A stretch of DNA of 64,000 nt, from the NCBI RefSeq assembly GCF_000023445.1, contig NC_012881.1, positions 873,501-937,500 on the forward strand, read 5' to 3'. Source of the DNA: Maridesulfovibrio salexigens DSM 2638. Lineage in GTDB: Bacteria; Desulfobacterota; Desulfovibrionia; Desulfovibrionales; Desulfovibrionaceae. Both the position numbers and the translations under genes were made by a program. The notes under the pieces were generated by a model that was given only the letters and a program-made list of their open reading frames with translations, made no database searches and was not told the origin of the DNA. Below are positions 17,581 to 53,685 of this stretch, piece by piece (within the stretch, counting starts at the first letter, position 1; each line of letters opens with the position of its first letter).

Positions 17581-18561
17581 ATGAGTGGTGAATCCTCATT
17601 ATTTAATTATACTCCTCCTGTCGAGCAGGAAAATGGAGAGGAAACCGAATTCATTACGGTGGTTTCACTGCGTTCTGACTCGCATAAGATAAAAGGCAAG
17701 CAGTATTGGTTGGCCAGCAAATTGGATGACGAAAGCTTTGAGCTGCTGCTTTTGAATGAAAACAGGGTTCCTTCAGGCGACCCCAAAGTGATCAGTAACG
17801 GGGAGTTTGCCGCCCATTACACTCTTGAGCTGGATTATTATCAGCAGCATGTTCGCCCAGCTATGGAACAGCAGGACAACCGATTAAGCAGAGGTGAGTC
17901 TCATCGTGAGCAGGGTGAATTCTATAGCGCCGAGATGGAGTACGCCGAAGCTCTGGCTGTGGATGAAAAGAATGTCCGCGCTACTTTCGGTCTCGGCCTG
18001 ACTTACCTTGAGAAAGGTGATGTGGAACGGGCGCAGGAAGTGTTTGCGAAAGTTTTGCAGCTTAAATCTGCTTTTCAGACCGAGCACAAACATATGTTTA
18101 ATGATTTCGGCATATCAATGCGTAAGAACGGCATGTATCGCGAGGCCTTGCAGTATTATAACCGAGGCGTAGATCTTGATAGTGCCGATGAAAACCTTTT
18201 CTTCAATATCGCCCGTACTCATTACGAAGCAGGAGACTGGGAAAATTGTTTCCGTTACCTGACCATGTGTCTTGAAAAGAACCGTGGTGTTCAGGAAGCC
18301 CAAAAATTCTGCCATTATCTGATAAAGAAAACCGAAGAAGATGACTCCATGCTTCGTGAAATGGGAAAAGGGGATAATGGTAAGACCCTGCGCAGCGACA
18401 TCCTGAACCTGCTACGCAAGATGCAGGTTGCCGCCGGTGTGGAGCTTGATGATGCCATTGAAAAGACCCACGAAATCCGTGACCGCATGATCGCCCTTGA
18501 AGAGGAGGATATGCAGATGAAGGAGATCGAAAAAGACCTCTACAATGTGGATGGAGATTAG
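17581..18561 (+). CDS. TPR-repeat protein
   Basis: The 326-residue cytoplasmic protein has no signal peptide. Residues about 1-95 form an unrecognised N-terminal region. Tetratricopeptide repeats follow at about 100-245; examples are GEFYSAEMEYAEALAVDEKN, VRATFGLGLTYLEKGDVERA and FNIARTHYEAGDWEN. The C-terminal ~80 residues are charged and helical. TPR arrays bind other proteins, so this is probably an adaptor or assembly factor; the partner is unknown. The stop codon overlaps the convergent ktrA stop by 4 bp, so the two genes share no terminator. It is divergent from the cyclotransferase operon across 179 bp. Confidence 0.8.
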   Translation: MSGESSLFNYTPPVEQENGEETEFITVVSLRSDSHKIKGKQYWLASKLDDESFELLLLNENRVPSGDPKVISNGEFAAHYTLELDYYQQHVRPAMEQQDNRLSRGESHREQGEFYSAEMEYAEALAVDEKNVRATFGLGLTYLEKGDVERAQEVFAKVLQLKSAFQTEHKHMFNDFGISMRKNGMYREALQYYNRGVDLDSADENLFFNIARTHYEAGDWENCFRYLTMCLEKNRGVQEAQKFCHYLIKKTEEDDSMLREMGKGDNGKTLRSDILNLLRKMQVAAGVELDDAIEKTHEIRDRMIALEEEDMQMKEIEKDLYNVDGD

Positions 18562-19220
18562 TTTTCCGGCAGTTTAAGCAGGTTTTCCCGCGCTCCGATC
18601 ATAATCAGCACATCATTTTCACCCAAAGACTCATTGGCTTTGGGGACGAAGTTCAGTTCTTCAGATCCGTTTTTGCGGATGGCGATGACCTGTACTTGAT
18701 AATTATTGGTCAGATCAAGGTCGATAAGAGTCTTGCCTGCCCAGTCTGAGGCCTGACGTTCTTTGATCAGGATGTCGTTCCCCATGGAGAGGTATTCGAT
18801 CATGCCCGGAGTGGACAGCTTATGGGCCAGCTGTTTGGCCGCGAAATGCTCAGGGAAAACGACATAATCCACACCCATTCTGCTGAGCACTTTCTTATGT
18901 GCCACACTGATGGCTTTAACCCAGATTTTGTTGACTCCGATCTCCTGTAAGTTGAGCACTACCAGCACACTTGCTTCCAGCGAGTCGCCAGTGGAAACCA
19001 CCACGTAGTTGAAATCCTGAAAGCTTAGCTGTTCAAGTGTTTTGGGATCGGTGCCGTCAGCCTGAAATACCTGTGCAAGGTAAGGCTTGGCTGCTTTAAC
19101 ACGCTCTTCACTGGTATCAACGCCAACAACATTATGGCCTAGCTTGCGCAGGTTCAAGGCCAGCTCCAGACCGAATTTACCAAGGCCGATGACGCCTACT
19201 TCTATTTTTTCTTTTGCCAT
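18558..19220 (-). CDS. ktrA: K+ uptake regulatory subunit KtrA/TrkA (RCK protein)
   Basis: KtrA is the cytoplasmic gating ring of a Ktr K+ channel-transporter. The 220-residue length fits single-RCK KtrA rather than two-domain TrkA (about 458). The N-terminal Rossmann fold has GVIGLGKFGLELA (residues 9-21) and the acidic GVDTSEERVK ending beta2, which together bind nucleotide. A TrkA_C domain fills about 135-220. The ktrB gene lies just upstream on the same strand, about 100 bp away, with a repeat element between them. K+ accumulation with betaine uptake (36.7-39.8 kb) fits a salt-adapted cell. Confidence 0.92.
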   Translation of the reverse strand: MAKEKIEVGVIGLGKFGLELALNLRKLGHNVVGVDTSEERVKAAKPYLAQVFQADGTDPKTLEQLSFQDFNYVVVSTGDSLEASVLVVLNLQEIGVNKIWVKAISVAHKKVLSRMGVDYVVFPEHFAAKQLAHKLSTPGMIEYLSMGNDILIKERQASDWAGKTLIDLDLTNNYQVQVIAIRKNGSEELNFVPKANESLGENDVLIMIGARENLLKLPEN

Positions 19221-19229
19221 ATTTTTATT

Positions 19230-19299
19230 GCCTCCGGCGGCTTAAAACCTTTTGTAAAAAGGGTTTAAGAATCCCAAAAATTTTTATTAGGCTTCGCCG
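19230..19299. repeat. Intergenic repeat, copy B, between ktrB and ktrA
   Basis: The element begins GCCTCCGGCGGC and ends GGCTTCGCCG, the reverse orientation of copy A. Its centre holds AACCTTTTGTAAAAAGGGTT, a hairpin like that of copy A. It sits inside a likely operon, which is unusual if it terminates transcription. It may reduce ktrA expression relative to ktrB. Confidence 0.7.
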
Positions 19300-19319
19300 A
19301 GTTGTATGTGAAATTTGTT

Positions 19320-20681
19320 TTATCCCAACGGTAAATCGTCTTCCGGCAATCTGTAGCGCGGCTCTTTCTGCCAGCTGTTGATTGCTGTCAGCAGCCATAC
19401 CGGTCCCAATCTTCCTACGAACATCAGGGCTATTATGATTGATTTGCCGGGTCCGCTCAAGTCCGGTGTTACTCCGGTGGAGAGCCCTACTGTGGCAAAG
19501 GCTGAGATTGCTTCGAAAGTAATTTCGATGAAGTGTCCGCGCACTTCGCTGTGCGGCAGGTGGCTTCCTTCTGTTATGCTCAGCATGATGATTGCCGAAC
19601 CGAGGATCACGCTAGCAATGGTCAGCAGGGTCAGAGCGCGGTTAACGCTTTCTTCAGTCAGGGCGTACCAGCCCACTTTGACCTGTGAATGGCCCTTGAC
19701 CTTGGAGATAATGAATCCAACCCAAGTTCGAAAGGTGGTCGTCTTCAAGCCGCCTGCGCATGATCCCGGTGAGCCGCCGATAAGCATCAGACCGATCATA
19801 ACCAGCAGGGAAATGTTGGTCAGGCCGGAAATATCCACGGTATTAAAGCCTGCGGTACGGCAGGTTACGGACTGGAACAGGGCAGCAATTTCATTGACCA
19901 CAGCACCTTCCACCACATGAACTTTGAAGCTTTCGGCAAAAAAGATAGCCAGCCCGCCGACTACGATCAGGAAAAGGCTTGTCTCCAGAACAATGCGGGT
20001 ATGCCAGCTTAAAGTATGGGCTGAAATTTCACCTTTGCGTCTACGCACGAAGTTCATGAATTTATGCCACAGCTCGGTCATGACGTAGAAACCCAGCCCG
20101 CCCATGATAATCAGGGCCATGAAAACGGTGTTGATTCCCAGATGGTTTTTCCATGTTGTCAGACTGTCTGAGTAGAGCGAGAAACCCGCGTTGCAGAATG
20201 CTGAAATGGAATGAAAGACCGCCGAAAACGGATAGAATCCGTCTGGGTCCATGCGGTTAAGCAGCAAAGCTCCCAGTGCTTCAATAGACAGCACCGCCGT
20301 GACCACGCCGACAATAAATTTGCCGATATTAAACGAAGGGTCATGGATTAAAGTTTGACTGACAGCTATCCGGTCCGAGGCACTGACTTTTTTCCCCAGC
20401 AGGTAAATTACCAGACTGGCATAGGTCATAATTCCCAGTCCTCCCAGCTGGATCAGGAAAAGAATTACGCTCTGTCCGGTCCGGCTGAAAAAGGTTCCGG
20501 TGTCCACAACAGCAAGGCCGGTAACGCAGACCGCCGAGGTTGCCGTAAAAATAGCATCAAGAAATGAAAGTTCCTTTCCCGGATGGCAAATGTCTAATTT
20601 CAGCAGCATCCCGCCAATCAAAATAGTAGCGAGAAATGCGTAAATGGGCACCCAGAAAGGAGAAGTCGCTTTGGAATTCAT
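19320..20681 (-). CDS. ktrB: K+ transporter membrane subunit KtrB/TrkH
   Basis: This is the ion-conducting subunit of a Ktr/Trk K+ uptake system in the inner membrane. The 453-residue protein has the four pseudo-repeats of the superfamily, each with a filter loop: TSAVCVTGLAV, ISAFCNAGFSL, SVTCRTAGFNT and ISAFATVGLST. Each carries the conserved glycine. Length is that of KtrB (about 450). It is the first gene of the ktrBA pair, followed by repeat copy B and ktrA. Coupling ion (Na+ in several KtrB proteins) cannot be read from sequence. Confidence 0.93.
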   Translation of the reverse strand: MNSKATSPFWVPIYAFLATILIGGMLLKLDICHPGKELSFLDAIFTATSAVCVTGLAVVDTGTFFSRTGQSVILFLIQLGGLGIMTYASLVIYLLGKKVSASDRIAVSQTLIHDPSFNIGKFIVGVVTAVLSIEALGALLLNRMDPDGFYPFSAVFHSISAFCNAGFSLYSDSLTTWKNHLGINTVFMALIIMGGLGFYVMTELWHKFMNFVRRRKGEISAHTLSWHTRIVLETSLFLIVVGGLAIFFAESFKVHVVEGAVVNEIAALFQSVTCRTAGFNTVDISGLTNISLLVMIGLMLIGGSPGSCAGGLKTTTFRTWVGFIISKVKGHSQVKVGWYALTEESVNRALTLLTIASVILGSAIIMLSITEGSHLPHSEVRGHFIEITFEAISAFATVGLSTGVTPDLSGPGKSIIIALMFVGRLGPVWLLTAINSWQKEPRYRLPEDDLPLG

Positions 20682-40165: not shown

Positions 40166-40252
40166 TGGTGCCGAAGAGAAGACTCGAACTTCCACGGAGA
40201 AACCTCCACTAGACCCTGAACCTAGCGTGTCTACCAATTCCACCACTTCGGC
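40166..40252 (-). tRNA. tRNA-Leu (anticodon CAG), copy 1
   Basis: An 87-nt gene on the minus strand includes the encoded CCA. The acceptor arm is GCCGAAG/CTTCGGC, the D-arm has GGAATTGGTAGACACGC, the anticodon loop is TTCAGGG (CAG, reads CUG), a long class II variable arm follows, and the T-loop is TTCGAGT. Two identical copies lie at 53357 and 53599. Confidence 0.95.
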
Positions 40253-40443
40253 ACTCGGTAGAGAAGTGTTTATTGATTTCGACCTGCTTTGGCAAGAACT
40301 TTTTTTGTTAAATTGTAAATAAATTGTAAAAAAGCTGCTCTCGATAAAAAAGTGTCACTCAAAAAGTAATAGTTTTCTAATTGTGGCCCCCGTTTTCTCT
40401 TGTTATAGAAAGCCTAGTAAGAAAATTAATAAGGGGGATATTC

Positions 40444-41484
40444 ATGGACCCGTCCACGCTGGTTCCGGCTGCTATTGGTATTTCAGTTCACCCTATCTGG
40501 CCGGTAACTCTTTCAATCATTACTTTTTCCGTTCACCTGTTGCTTATGAATGCGGTTTTCGGGGGAGCGGCGATCGTCTTTGTTCACTCTCTTTCCGGAG
40601 GAACAGCGATTTCCAAAAATATTTCCAAGAAATTGCCGACACTGCTGGCTCTGGCAATTAATGCCGGAGTGCCGCCGCTCTTGTTTCTGCAAGCAGTGTA
40701 CGGTCAGTTCAGCTATGTTTCCTCAATTCTCATGGCTGTTTTCTGGCTGGCGGTGATTGCTGCCCTCATCTGCGGCTATTATGGTTTGTATTTTCATAAC
40801 TACCGCTATGAAAAACTGGGTGTCTCAGGACGCAGTCTGACCATGCTGGCAGTGCTCTGTATGATTGTCTACATCGGCTTCATGCTTTCCAATAAAATGA
40901 CCCTGATGCTGCGCCCGGAGGTCTGGTCTGAATATTTTACTGATCCGCACGGATTCAACCTCAACCTGAGTGATCCGGTTCTTTACCCGCGCTTTATGCA
41001 TTTTGCCATATCCGCGTTGGCTGTGGGCGGACTCTTTGTTGCCTTAGTGGGCAAGCGGAAAGGTTATTCAGACTTTGTTGATACGGGAATGAAATGGTTC
41101 TCACGGTCAACATTAGTGAATGTACTTATGGGGTTCTGGTTTCTGGTGGCCCTGCCCAAAGAAATAATGCTTATCTTTATGGGCGGTGATATTCTTGCCA
41201 CGGTTTTGCTTTGTGTGGGATTGCTCGCAACTTTTGCCATGCTTCACGCCGGATTCACCAAGAACGTTTACTGGGGCGTAGCTGCAACGGTTTTTATTGT
41301 GCCGGTCATGGCTGTTATGCGTCATCTTGTCCGCCAGAAATATCTGGAACCGTATTTTACACTTGATACCGCCCCCGTGTCAGGGCAGTGGTCTCCCTTC
41401 ATACTTTTTGTTGTCTCCCTTATTGCAGGCGGATTTTGCATCGTCTACATGCTGAAACTCATGCGCAAGGCTGAAAGGAGTTAA
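40444..41484 (+). CDS. Membrane subunit paired with a cytochrome bd-superfamily protein
   Basis: The 346-residue protein has about eight to nine membrane segments, no CXXCH and no signal peptide. Its N-terminus (PIWPVTLSIITFSVHLLLMNAVFGGAAI) resembles the first helix of CydA-like proteins, with a histidine in the same place, more than it resembles CydB. The ATG at 40444 follows AAGGGGGA. It overlaps the next gene by one base (TAATG), so the two subunits are translationally coupled. I infer it is the second membrane subunit of a bd-like complex in the poorly characterised cytochrome-c-linked branch. Quinone or haem sites cannot be assigned with confidence. Confidence 0.65.
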   Translation: MDPSTLVPAAIGISVHPIWPVTLSIITFSVHLLLMNAVFGGAAIVFVHSLSGGTAISKNISKKLPTLLALAINAGVPPLLFLQAVYGQFSYVSSILMAVFWLAVIAALICGYYGLYFHNYRYEKLGVSGRSLTMLAVLCMIVYIGFMLSNKMTLMLRPEVWSEYFTDPHGFNLNLSDPVLYPRFMHFAISALAVGGLFVALVGKRKGYSDFVDTGMKWFSRSTLVNVLMGFWFLVALPKEIMLIFMGGDILATVLLCVGLLATFAMLHAGFTKNVYWGVAATVFIVPVMAVMRHLVRQKYLEPYFTLDTAPVSGQWSPFILFVVSLIAGGFCIVYMLKLMRKAERS

Positions 41485-43952
41485 TGATGGAATATCCAAT
41501 CTGGCATTTAACTACTTTCGGCGGTGGGTTCTGGATCGCGGTCATTGCTACAATCCATGTTTTCGTGGCTCAGTTTGCCGTTGGTGGCGGGCTGTTTTTA
41601 GTCGTCACAGAAAAACTGGCCTACAAGACTGAATCAGGCGAGTTGCTTGATTACGTTAAAAAACATTCTAAATTCTTTCTGCTTCTTACGATGGTTTTCG
41701 GGGGCGGGACCGGGGTTGCTCTCTGGTTTACCATGGCTCTTCTCAGTCCGCAGGGAACCCTTGTGCTGGTCCGCGAGTTTCTCTTTGCATGGGCTACGGA
41801 ATGGGTCTGGTTCGTGGGTGAGATCGTTGCCCTGCTTATCTATTATTACTATTGGGATAAGATGAACCGCAGGGATCATCTGATTATCGGCTGGTTCTAT
41901 TTCATTTTTGCTTTCCTGTCTCTTTTTACCATCAACGGTGTGGTTTCCTTCATGCTCACCCCCGGAGTCTGGGAGGAAACCAGAAGTTTCTGGGATGCCA
42001 TTTTCAACCCCACTTTCTGGCCCGCACTCTTTTTCCGTACCGCACTTTGCGGCATGCTTGCCGGACTGTTCGGTTTTGTGACTGCGGCACGGATCAAGGA
42101 TAAGGACCTGCGTTGCATGCTGGTCCGTTTTTGCGGCATCTGGACCCTGACCGGATTGGTTCTGACCGTATTTTCCGGTTACTGGTATATGGGCAGTATC
42201 CCCGCGGAGCAGATTATGCTGGTGGTCCATAAGTCACATCGCGTGGCTTATTTCATGGAAGTATTTAAGTACACTGCTCCGGTTCTCCTTTTCGGTGGTC
42301 TGTTCATGGCTATCTGTGCCCCGCGCCGGGTTAATTTCAGCTCGGCAATGGTAATGCTGGTGGTGGCTTTGATGTTTTACGGTTCCTTCGAGTTCATGCG
42401 CGAGGCCGGCCGTAAGCCCTATGTTGTCTGGGGTGAGGTCTATTCCACCAACATCACCGTGGAGCAGGCAAAGAAGCTGCACGGTGAGTCCATTCTGCAA
42501 AATGCTAAATGGATTCCGCAGGACCTGCGCGAGATTACTGATCAGAACCGCTTGAAAGCCGGATCATGGCTTTATCAGATGGAGTGCGGTCCGTGTCATG
42601 CTATTAACGGCCCCATGAATGATATTGTGCCCCGTACATCAAAATACACTACTGCTGGGCTGGATGCTTTTATCTCCGGCATGGGCAAGGTTAATAAGTA
42701 TATGTCGGAATTTATGGGTAATGCTGAAGAACGCAGAGTTCTTGCCGAATATATCCATTCTGTCGGTTCGGGATACGATCCTGTTCTGCCGGAAACTGAA
42801 GAAGCAGAGCTGAGTCCCGGGCCCTTCAAAGCTGAGCAGGAATATGTGCTCATGGCTTGGTCGCTGGAAGGATTGCGTTTGATCATCGATAAAGATCGCG
42901 CCATGTCCATCTCAGACAAGGGCAGCACAGTACGCGCTCAGCTCTTGCTGCGTGGAGATCCACCCGAAGTTGTCACTGATGATGTAAAAATCGTCTGCAA
43001 GCCGCAGGGTATGGATAAGAGTTTTGAACTTGCGGTTAAGGACGGTTATTTTCAGTCCGGTCCCATAGAAATACTGCCTTACACCAAGGAAGCCTATCAG
43101 CCCTTGCCCCCGGTGGAAGTTCAGGCTTTTGATGCGAATGGAAATGTTCTCGCAAGTACAACTATCGTGCTTCCGGTCTCTACCCGTCCGGGCTGCAACA
43201 ATTGTCACGGCGGAGGTTGGGATATACCGGAGCAGGGTGGATTTTCCGCTCGCACAGCGATGGATATCGCCGGGGTGCATGACCGCGATAACAAAACCAA
43301 CTTTAGGCAGCGGTTAAAGGATAACGAGATCATTGACTGCATGGGATGCCACGACGGTGAATTGCAGCTTAATCTGTCCACCGCTCTGCACGGTTTTCAT
43401 GCTGTTTATCTTTCAGGCAGGGAGAACGATGCGTGCATGATGTGCCATCCGCAGGAAAGTCTGCGCGGTGTTCATGTTGATGCCGGAATGGAATGCGTGA
43501 ATTGCCACGGCTCTATGGAGAATCATTCTCTAGCTCTGCTTAAAGGTGAAGAACAGAAGCCTGCAGCCAAGGAACTTATTAAACTGATTACTCCGGTTGA
43601 TTATGAGCTTGAAGAAATCAATGCACGTCAGCCTAATGAGCAGCAGCCTGATTGTCTGACCTGTCACGTTGAATTCGCTGACCCTGATTCGGATTCTGCC
43701 TTTAACAAGTGGACTGAGGACAGCTCCGGCTTGTTCCGCAATCGCAAGGATGAAATGGATGCCGTGATGTGTGCTGCATGTCATAACGCACCGCATGCAA
43801 TCTTCCCGGCAGCAAACGAGCGCGACAATCTGCGTCCGCTACAATATATGGGTGAAGCGCAGCCCATAGGAGCAGCCGGAACATGTACGGTCTGCCATGA
43901 GGACGATATGGGCTATCCGGCCCACCACCCCGGAATGGGATTGGAAGAGTAA
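41484..43952 (+). CDS. CydA-like membrane protein fused to a multihaem cytochrome c
   Basis: Residues 1-310 form about seven to eight membrane helices of the cytochrome bd superfamily: His25 (TIHVFVAQ) sits where the high-spin haem ligand is, and Glu98 and Glu106 keep the eight-residue spacing of E. coli CydA Glu99/Glu107. REAGRKPYVVWG (about 306-317) matches the CydA EYGRQPWAIGE loop. The His and Met ligands of haem b558 are not visible. Residues 360-822 are extracytoplasmic with eight CXXCH motifs starting at 368, 571, 619, 651, 671, 724, 763 and 801. I infer electron exchange between a membrane b-haem core and periplasmic c-haems. Direction and partner are unknown. Confidence 0.8.
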   Translation: MMEYPIWHLTTFGGGFWIAVIATIHVFVAQFAVGGGLFLVVTEKLAYKTESGELLDYVKKHSKFFLLLTMVFGGGTGVALWFTMALLSPQGTLVLVREFLFAWATEWVWFVGEIVALLIYYYYWDKMNRRDHLIIGWFYFIFAFLSLFTINGVVSFMLTPGVWEETRSFWDAIFNPTFWPALFFRTALCGMLAGLFGFVTAARIKDKDLRCMLVRFCGIWTLTGLVLTVFSGYWYMGSIPAEQIMLVVHKSHRVAYFMEVFKYTAPVLLFGGLFMAICAPRRVNFSSAMVMLVVALMFYGSFEFMREAGRKPYVVWGEVYSTNITVEQAKKLHGESILQNAKWIPQDLREITDQNRLKAGSWLYQMECGPCHAINGPMNDIVPRTSKYTTAGLDAFISGMGKVNKYMSEFMGNAEERRVLAEYIHSVGSGYDPVLPETEEAELSPGPFKAEQEYVLMAWSLEGLRLIIDKDRAMSISDKGSTVRAQLLLRGDPPEVVTDDVKIVCKPQGMDKSFELAVKDGYFQSGPIEILPYTKEAYQPLPPVEVQAFDANGNVLASTTIVLPVSTRPGCNNCHGGGWDIPEQGGFSARTAMDIAGVHDRDNKTNFRQRLKDNEIIDCMGCHDGELQLNLSTALHGFHAVYLSGRENDACMMCHPQESLRGVHVDAGMECVNCHGSMENHSLALLKGEEQKPAAKELIKLITPVDYELEEINARQPNEQQPDCLTCHVEFADPDSDSAFNKWTEDSSGLFRNRKDEMDAVMCAACHNAPHAIFPAANERDNLRPLQYMGEAQPIGAAGTCTVCHEDDMGYPAHHPGMGLEE

Positions 43953-53356: not shown

Positions 53357-53443
53357 TGGTGCCGAAGAGAAGACTCGAACTTCCACGGAGAAACCTCCAC
53401 TAGACCCTGAACCTAGCGTGTCTACCAATTCCACCACTTCGGC
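53357..53443 (-). tRNA. tRNA-Leu (anticodon CAG), copy 2
   Basis: Sequence identical to the copy at 40166-40252, including encoded CCA and the TTCAGGG anticodon loop. It is tandem with copy 3, separated by 155 bp. Confidence 0.95.
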
Positions 53444-53598: not shown

Positions 53599-53685
53599 TG
53601 GTGCCGAAGAGAAGACTCGAACTTCCACGGAGAAACCTCCACTAGACCCTGAACCTAGCGTGTCTACCAATTCCACCACTTCGGC
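53599..53685 (-). tRNA. tRNA-Leu (anticodon CAG), copy 3
   Basis: Third identical copy. The flanking ATATGG and the GCCGCAAC terminator are also shared with copy 2, showing that the tRNA-terminator unit was duplicated as a whole. Confidence 0.95.

Follow-up and report, generated by a model that had tools for sequence, protein, structure and literature searches.

A putative cytochrome c-fed oxygen reductase of the cytochrome bd superfamily in Maridesulfovibrio salexigens

We analyzed a two-gene operon in a stretch of 64,000 nucleotides (the window; bases 873501-937500) of the single-contig genome of Maridesulfovibrio salexigens DSM 2638 (NC_012881.1, 4,289,847 bases). Gene 2 joins a CydA-like membrane core to eight CXXCH c-haem motifs, and gene 1 encodes a second membrane protein, subunit 1 (Table 1). 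The two genes share one base, position 41484 being both the end of the gene 1 TAA and the start of the gene 2 ATG; an in-frame ATG at 41487 is an equally possible start. A first-pass annotation of this DNA had already pointed to the one-base overlap with a second membrane subunit, and we find that this partner is conserved.

Table 1. Positions of the operon, its encoded domains and a promoter-like site within the window
Feature	Position	Strand	Description
Subunit 1 (gene 1), 346 aa	40444..41484	+	Membrane protein of bd fold with nine helices; diverged paralogue of the gene 2 core
Subunit 2 (gene 2), 822 aa	41484..43952	+	CydA-like core fused to eight c-haem sites
Gene 2 bd core, residues 1-325	41484..42458	+	Eight long membrane helices; no Q-loop
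Class I-like monohaem cytochrome c domain, residues 355-427	42546..42764	+	CXXCH 368-372; Met407 likely sixth ligand
Beta-strand domain, residues ~452-565	42837..43178	+	Accompanies the multihaem part in split forms
Heptahaem domain, residues 570-822	43191..43949	+	Seven CXXCH; PF22113 and PF14522 matches
Promoter-like site TTGTGG-17-TATAGA	40381..40409	+	By eye, from the sequence and an alignment of nine upstream regions

The first-pass annotation had read the membrane part of gene 2 as CydA-like, and the Pfam search that it named as a check agrees: residues 18-232 match Cyt_bd_oxida_I (PF01654) with an E-value of 2.9e-11 and 43 bits, above the cut-off of 26.2. Conservation was then counted over aligned rows of relatives, with L002, the gene of the window itself (L040) and all duplicate rows left out, and with L005 and L028, whose gene 2 is spread over several frames, used only as pieces. 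In Escherichia coli CydA, the haem d/b595 pair is liganded by His19, Glu99, Glu107 and Glu445. His25 of gene 2 pairs with His19 and is invariant (82/82 rows), as the annotation had supposed. The carboxylates Glu106 and Glu113, each found in 82/82 rows, align with Glu99 and Glu107 and also with a pair of Glu in chain 5doq_A from Geobacillus, while Glu307 aligns with Glu445 and is unchanged in all 79 rows that reach it. The annotation had instead paired Glu106 with Glu98; the former holds, but position 98 is Glu in only 16 of 82 rows and is ruled out as an active-site residue, the true pair being 106/113. The catalytic ligands are the same in the fused, split, minimal and dihaem types of relatives described below.

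The quinol side of the core differs from that of CydA, where haem b558 is held by His186 and Met393. The place of His186 is taken by Arg185 in 82/82 gene 2 rows and Met393 falls at a gap, whereas canonical CydA keeps both residues in 31/31 rows. The Q-loop likewise appears as a long gap for gene 2 in the profile alignment, with Lys252 and Glu257 kept in 31/31 canonical rows. These differences, and the lack of any CydB match for subunit 1 in Pfam at E 1, agree with the earlier view that the pair is not canonical CydAB. Two functional options had been put forward for it. An O2 reductase fed from c-haems gains support as an option; a quinol oxidase feeding c-haems appears disfavoured, because gene 2 has neither the b558 ligands nor the Q-loop.

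The eight CXXCH motifs of the C-terminal part, annotated as such, lie at gene 2 residues 368, 571, 619, 651, 671, 724, 763 and 801, a number far from chance: when residues 331-822 were shuffled 20,000 times, the motif occurred 0.02 times on average and never more than twice. The first motif belongs to the monohaem domain, which matches PF13442 weakly (E 0.0031, below the cut-off) and has its CXXCH and Met407 in 78/78 rows reaching it. The heptahaem part is over the cut-off for PF22113 (MtrC/MtrF II-IV; E 2.3e-10) and PF14522 (E 3.8e-10). Its seven motifs are kept in 38 fused and 5 split rows. Eight further His are conserved with it (at least 34/38 fused, 5/5 split), enough for seven bis-His haems, and the seven C-terminal haems are probably of this kind. 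We make no structural match claim for the heptahaem part because its model is poor, with a predicted local distance difference test score below 50 over most of residues 771-822; the fold of the beta-strand domain gave middling VIA matches only. By inspection of the sequence and model, the loops that should face the cytoplasm carry the positive charges and the C-terminal part comes after helix 8, which would place this part in the periplasm. Residues 440-822 have no second copy in the genome at E 1e-3.

The relatives vary in how many c-haem sites they carry. Among 64 collected open reading frames (ORFs), eight CXXCH were counted in 38, seven in 11, six in 1, one in 10 and none in 4; all twelve ORFs with six or seven reach a DNA end, and several others are fragments. 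In the split form (L105-L109, five genomes), gene 2 ends soon after the monohaem domain and a multihaem gene follows directly, whose product has 7-10 CXXCH and is homologous to the gene 2 C-terminal part (E 2.7e-40 to 5.7e-85). A frameshift is ruled out, as every one of these multihaem proteins has its own N-terminal hydrophobic stretch. We conclude that the beta-strand and multihaem part is here a separate, predicted membrane-anchored protein, reflecting fission or fusion inside one family. The minimal form (L030-L036, L111, L112, L115 and L117) consists of a monohaem gene 2 and subunit 1. The dihaem type (L100-L103, L114 and L118) is a second and distant c-linked bd type, which has a dihaem protein in addition to a monohaem CydA-like gene 2 and whose subunit 1 carries two CXXCH of its own; the core of this type is about 29-34% identical to the window's, and some genomes have it beside the fused type.

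Several of these loci have other multihaem ORFs nearby. ORFs with 8-11 CXXCH, not recognizable as the window's multihaem part, lie near the operon in L115 (eight CXXCH, unrelated and divergently adjoining, 1269-2543), L036 (eleven, about 5.6 kb off, 18198-20366), L009 (8803-10395) and L021 (1-1767), and are possible unrelated electron partners. Further ORFs near dihaem-type loci carry seven (L118) and four (L114) CXXCH. The assembly of Salidesulfovibrio brasiliensis JCM 12178 has two copies (L005 and L028) with gene 2 in several frames, from decay or assembly error.

A quick gene 2 tree, built without 15 near-copies or fragments, rows below 400 aa and L117 (wrong start), and with L005 and L021 labelled as unsure, separates 69 c-linked rows from 9 of canonical CydA, the branches between them being very long. 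The fused label needs 5 changes on it, with long branches that meet, and a single origin of the fusion is not supported. A c-haem module that varies so freely could also be expected of an electron-transfer or sensing relic, in which a non-catalytic bd-like core serves as membrane anchor for a multihaem conduit. We consider this highly improbable, given that the catalytic ligands are constant across all types (82/82 rows for three, 79/79 for Glu307) and that the split multihaem proteins carry an anchor of their own. The unchanging core of the fused, split and minimal forms is the best evidence that c-haems may be the core's electron supply.

At E 1e-3, 62 of 98 genomes, counting that of the window, gave a match to the core. 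Of these, 53 have an open frame of at least 822 aa, 5 are split, 3 are cut by contig ends and 1 has the dihaem type only. An even phylum sample gave the core in 36 of 198 genomes, 8 of them with a frame of at least 825 aa. PF00115, which covers haem-copper oxidases and nitric oxide (NO) reductase, was found in 19 of the same 98 genomes, 16 of which also have the core; it was found in none of the 17 genomes of the genus and has no match in the window's genome.

Subunit 1 has, by model comparison, the CydA fold, which is that of bd subunits, although only 4 rows of its Foldseek matches reach E 1e-3. By sequence, its comparison with canonical CydA is not significant (E 0.1), with subunit 1 His186 paired to the b558 ligand. 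Its kinship to bd proteins follows from its match to gene 2 and from the fold, and the second subunit is thus a bd-fold paralogue of gene 2. His31 is conserved in all rows seen, and His186 and Met289 are both present in 70 of 77 rows and both absent in the other 7. This joint presence, the CydA fold and the pairing of His186 with the b558 ligand would suit a menaquinol:cytochrome c oxidoreductase or a dual-input enzyme, in which a b558-like haem on His186/Met289 passes electrons from menaquinol either to the c-haems in the periplasm or to the b595/d site. However, the loops between helices 6 and 7 are short and a Q-loop is seen in neither subunit. Moreover, apart from L037, which is outside the tree, all rows lacking the pair (six of seven) fall in one gene 2 tree group, so the covariation may reflect a single event; in addition, a complete set of O2-reducing ligands would stand idle. 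We therefore regard this explanation as unlikely. Its dual-input version, with a relocated b558 half in subunit 1 able to exchange electrons with menaquinol and an O2-reducing half in subunit 2 fed by an eight-haem wire, seems to us rather unlikely as well. If true, a single complex would connect oxygen with both the quinone pool and the cytochrome c3 pool of the periplasm, and would explain periplasmic H2-dependent O2 reduction in sulfate reducers without a haem-copper oxidase.

The operon stands alone in the window. Upstream are a minus-strand ABC-transporter-like gene set and a tRNA-Leu gene (40166-40252), and downstream is a DEAD-box-like helicase gene, the protein-coding neighbours being named by eye. 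Two more tRNA-Leu genes with the same CAG anticodon (53357-53443 and 53599-53685) lie in the window, all three on the minus strand. The promoter-like site, predicted by eye, is partly kept within the genus. No accessory gene was recognized as conserved beside the operon among the 25 largest shared groups in the window and the loci of 23 relatives, a survey limited by contigs of unequal length. These groups comprise the two genes, frames overlapping them, groups common to two loci only and an Rrf2-like gene; most of the overlaps were confirmed by position, and one putative member of this kind (in L014, L016, L020, L026 and L027) lies partly upstream of gene 1.

Three of the 23 relatives (L012, L015 and L022) have the Rrf2-like regulator gene, an identification made by eye, close to the operon. 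Rrf2 proteins are often sensors of redox state or NO, and haem sites of the bd kind bind NO. A detoxifying reductase of NO or another small nitrogen or peroxide species, working with the same haem pair and likewise fed by the c-haems, would fit both this gene and a genome with no PF00115 (NO reductase or haem-copper) match. Against this, the ligands are those of an O2-reducing bd enzyme, the neighbourhood survey revealed no other conserved gene, and a scan of 59 upstream regions with seven regulator patterns found no common site, only scattered loose matches such as a loose NsrR-like pattern and one sigma-54-like site. A role of this kind is in our view quite improbable.

Taken together, we consider it likely that the operon encodes a two-subunit, cytochrome c-fed oxygen reductase of the bd superfamily. 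Its heptahaem domain would receive electrons from the c-haem pool of the periplasm; the obvious donor would be the tetrahaem cytochrome c3, itself reduced by hydrogenases or formate dehydrogenases, with c553 a further candidate. The next carrier would be the His/Met haem c located after the last membrane helix, on the presumed periplasmic side, where ordinary cytochrome bd has haem b558 and the Q-loop; from there the electrons would reach a b595/d-type haem pair in the core, at which O2 would be reduced to water. Should the enzyme still take up protons by the usual cytoplasmic path, the reaction would be electrogenic. The catalytic subunit would thus have retained the b595/d pair and changed its electron input, losing the quinol site and b558 and gaining a haem c with the seven probable bis-His haems behind it. 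A low potential is usual for bis-His haems and a high one for a His/Met haem c; on that basis, electrons would run downhill from the c pool of the periplasm to O2.

Several points weigh against this assignment. The potentials and direction of flow rest on general knowledge, and the eight spare His fit bis-His haems and are no proof of potentials. No homologous multihaem gene was found in the DNA stretches examined around minimal-form loci, and L110 (G332:C6), which is close to the window's type (core 53% identical, one CXXCH), has no multihaem gene of any kind within 8.7 kb. The His/Met pair of subunit 1 points to an additional haem for which this electron path does not account, and bd-like sites could bind NO or peroxide. 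Finally, among 149 genomes of the class that were sampled, 143 match PF01654, the best match in each (E 2e-151 or lower) being canonical CydA, which means that such cells possess an O2 reductase already; there is one canonical CydA copy in the window's genome.

Compared with the canonical cytochrome bd quinol oxidase CydAB (family qOR), the operon shares the CydA fold, the ligands of the O2-reducing haem pair and the presence of two bd-fold subunits, and differs in the Arg at the b558 His, the missing Q-loop, the eight c-haem sites and a partner that is not CydB by Pfam. The heptahaem part resembles the multihaem cytochromes MtrC/OmcA at the level of PF22113 but is tethered here to an inner-membrane bd core, and the whole-protein OmcA/MtrC model TIGR03507 (NCBIfam) scores 10.5 bits against a cut-off of 209.3. 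The cc(o/b)o3 cytochrome c oxidase of Desulfovibrio vulgaris is presumably of the haem-copper type, a type for which the window's genome has no PF00115 match. It is nonetheless similar as a membrane O2 reductase fed by c-haem in a sulfate reducer, one with two membrane oxygen reductases, whose double mutant at 0.02% O2 is described, with regard to protection of one enzyme, as having both losses offset by one or several unknown mechanisms (PMC4383621). A cytochrome bd subunit A homologue is among the candidate O2-transfer proteins of cable bacteria (PMC11247825) and may belong to the c-linked type.

Our analysis thus provides a concrete candidate for a widespread c-haem-fed bd-type oxidase. Its minimal, split and fused versions outline a route by which a bd oxidase could change donor, with the quinol side lost and c-haems added. 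The OR-C family is defined by a C-terminal haem c on the CydA subunit and the lack of a quinol site; gene 2 has both features and is a likely member. Summaries of the bd superfamily divide it into qOR, which holds the quinol site, OR-C and OR-N, the last with two CydA-type subunits (CydAA') and cytochrome c proposed as likely donor; like these two families, gene 2 stands apart from the quinol-site enzymes, and the summaries, as far as consulted, make no mention of a fused heptahaem form (PMC10839748, PMC12342949, PMC13189123). In the open-licence literature searched, the only description of this architecture that we found is a 2015 survey, and we found none of subunit 1; the survey, in the part consulted, set such proteins aside as not proper bd oxidases for want of a cydB (PMC5322542). 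The partner subunit and intact catalytic ligands reported here argue otherwise and call that ground into question: what was noted in print and set aside is a real, conserved and probably catalytic variant of the bd superfamily.
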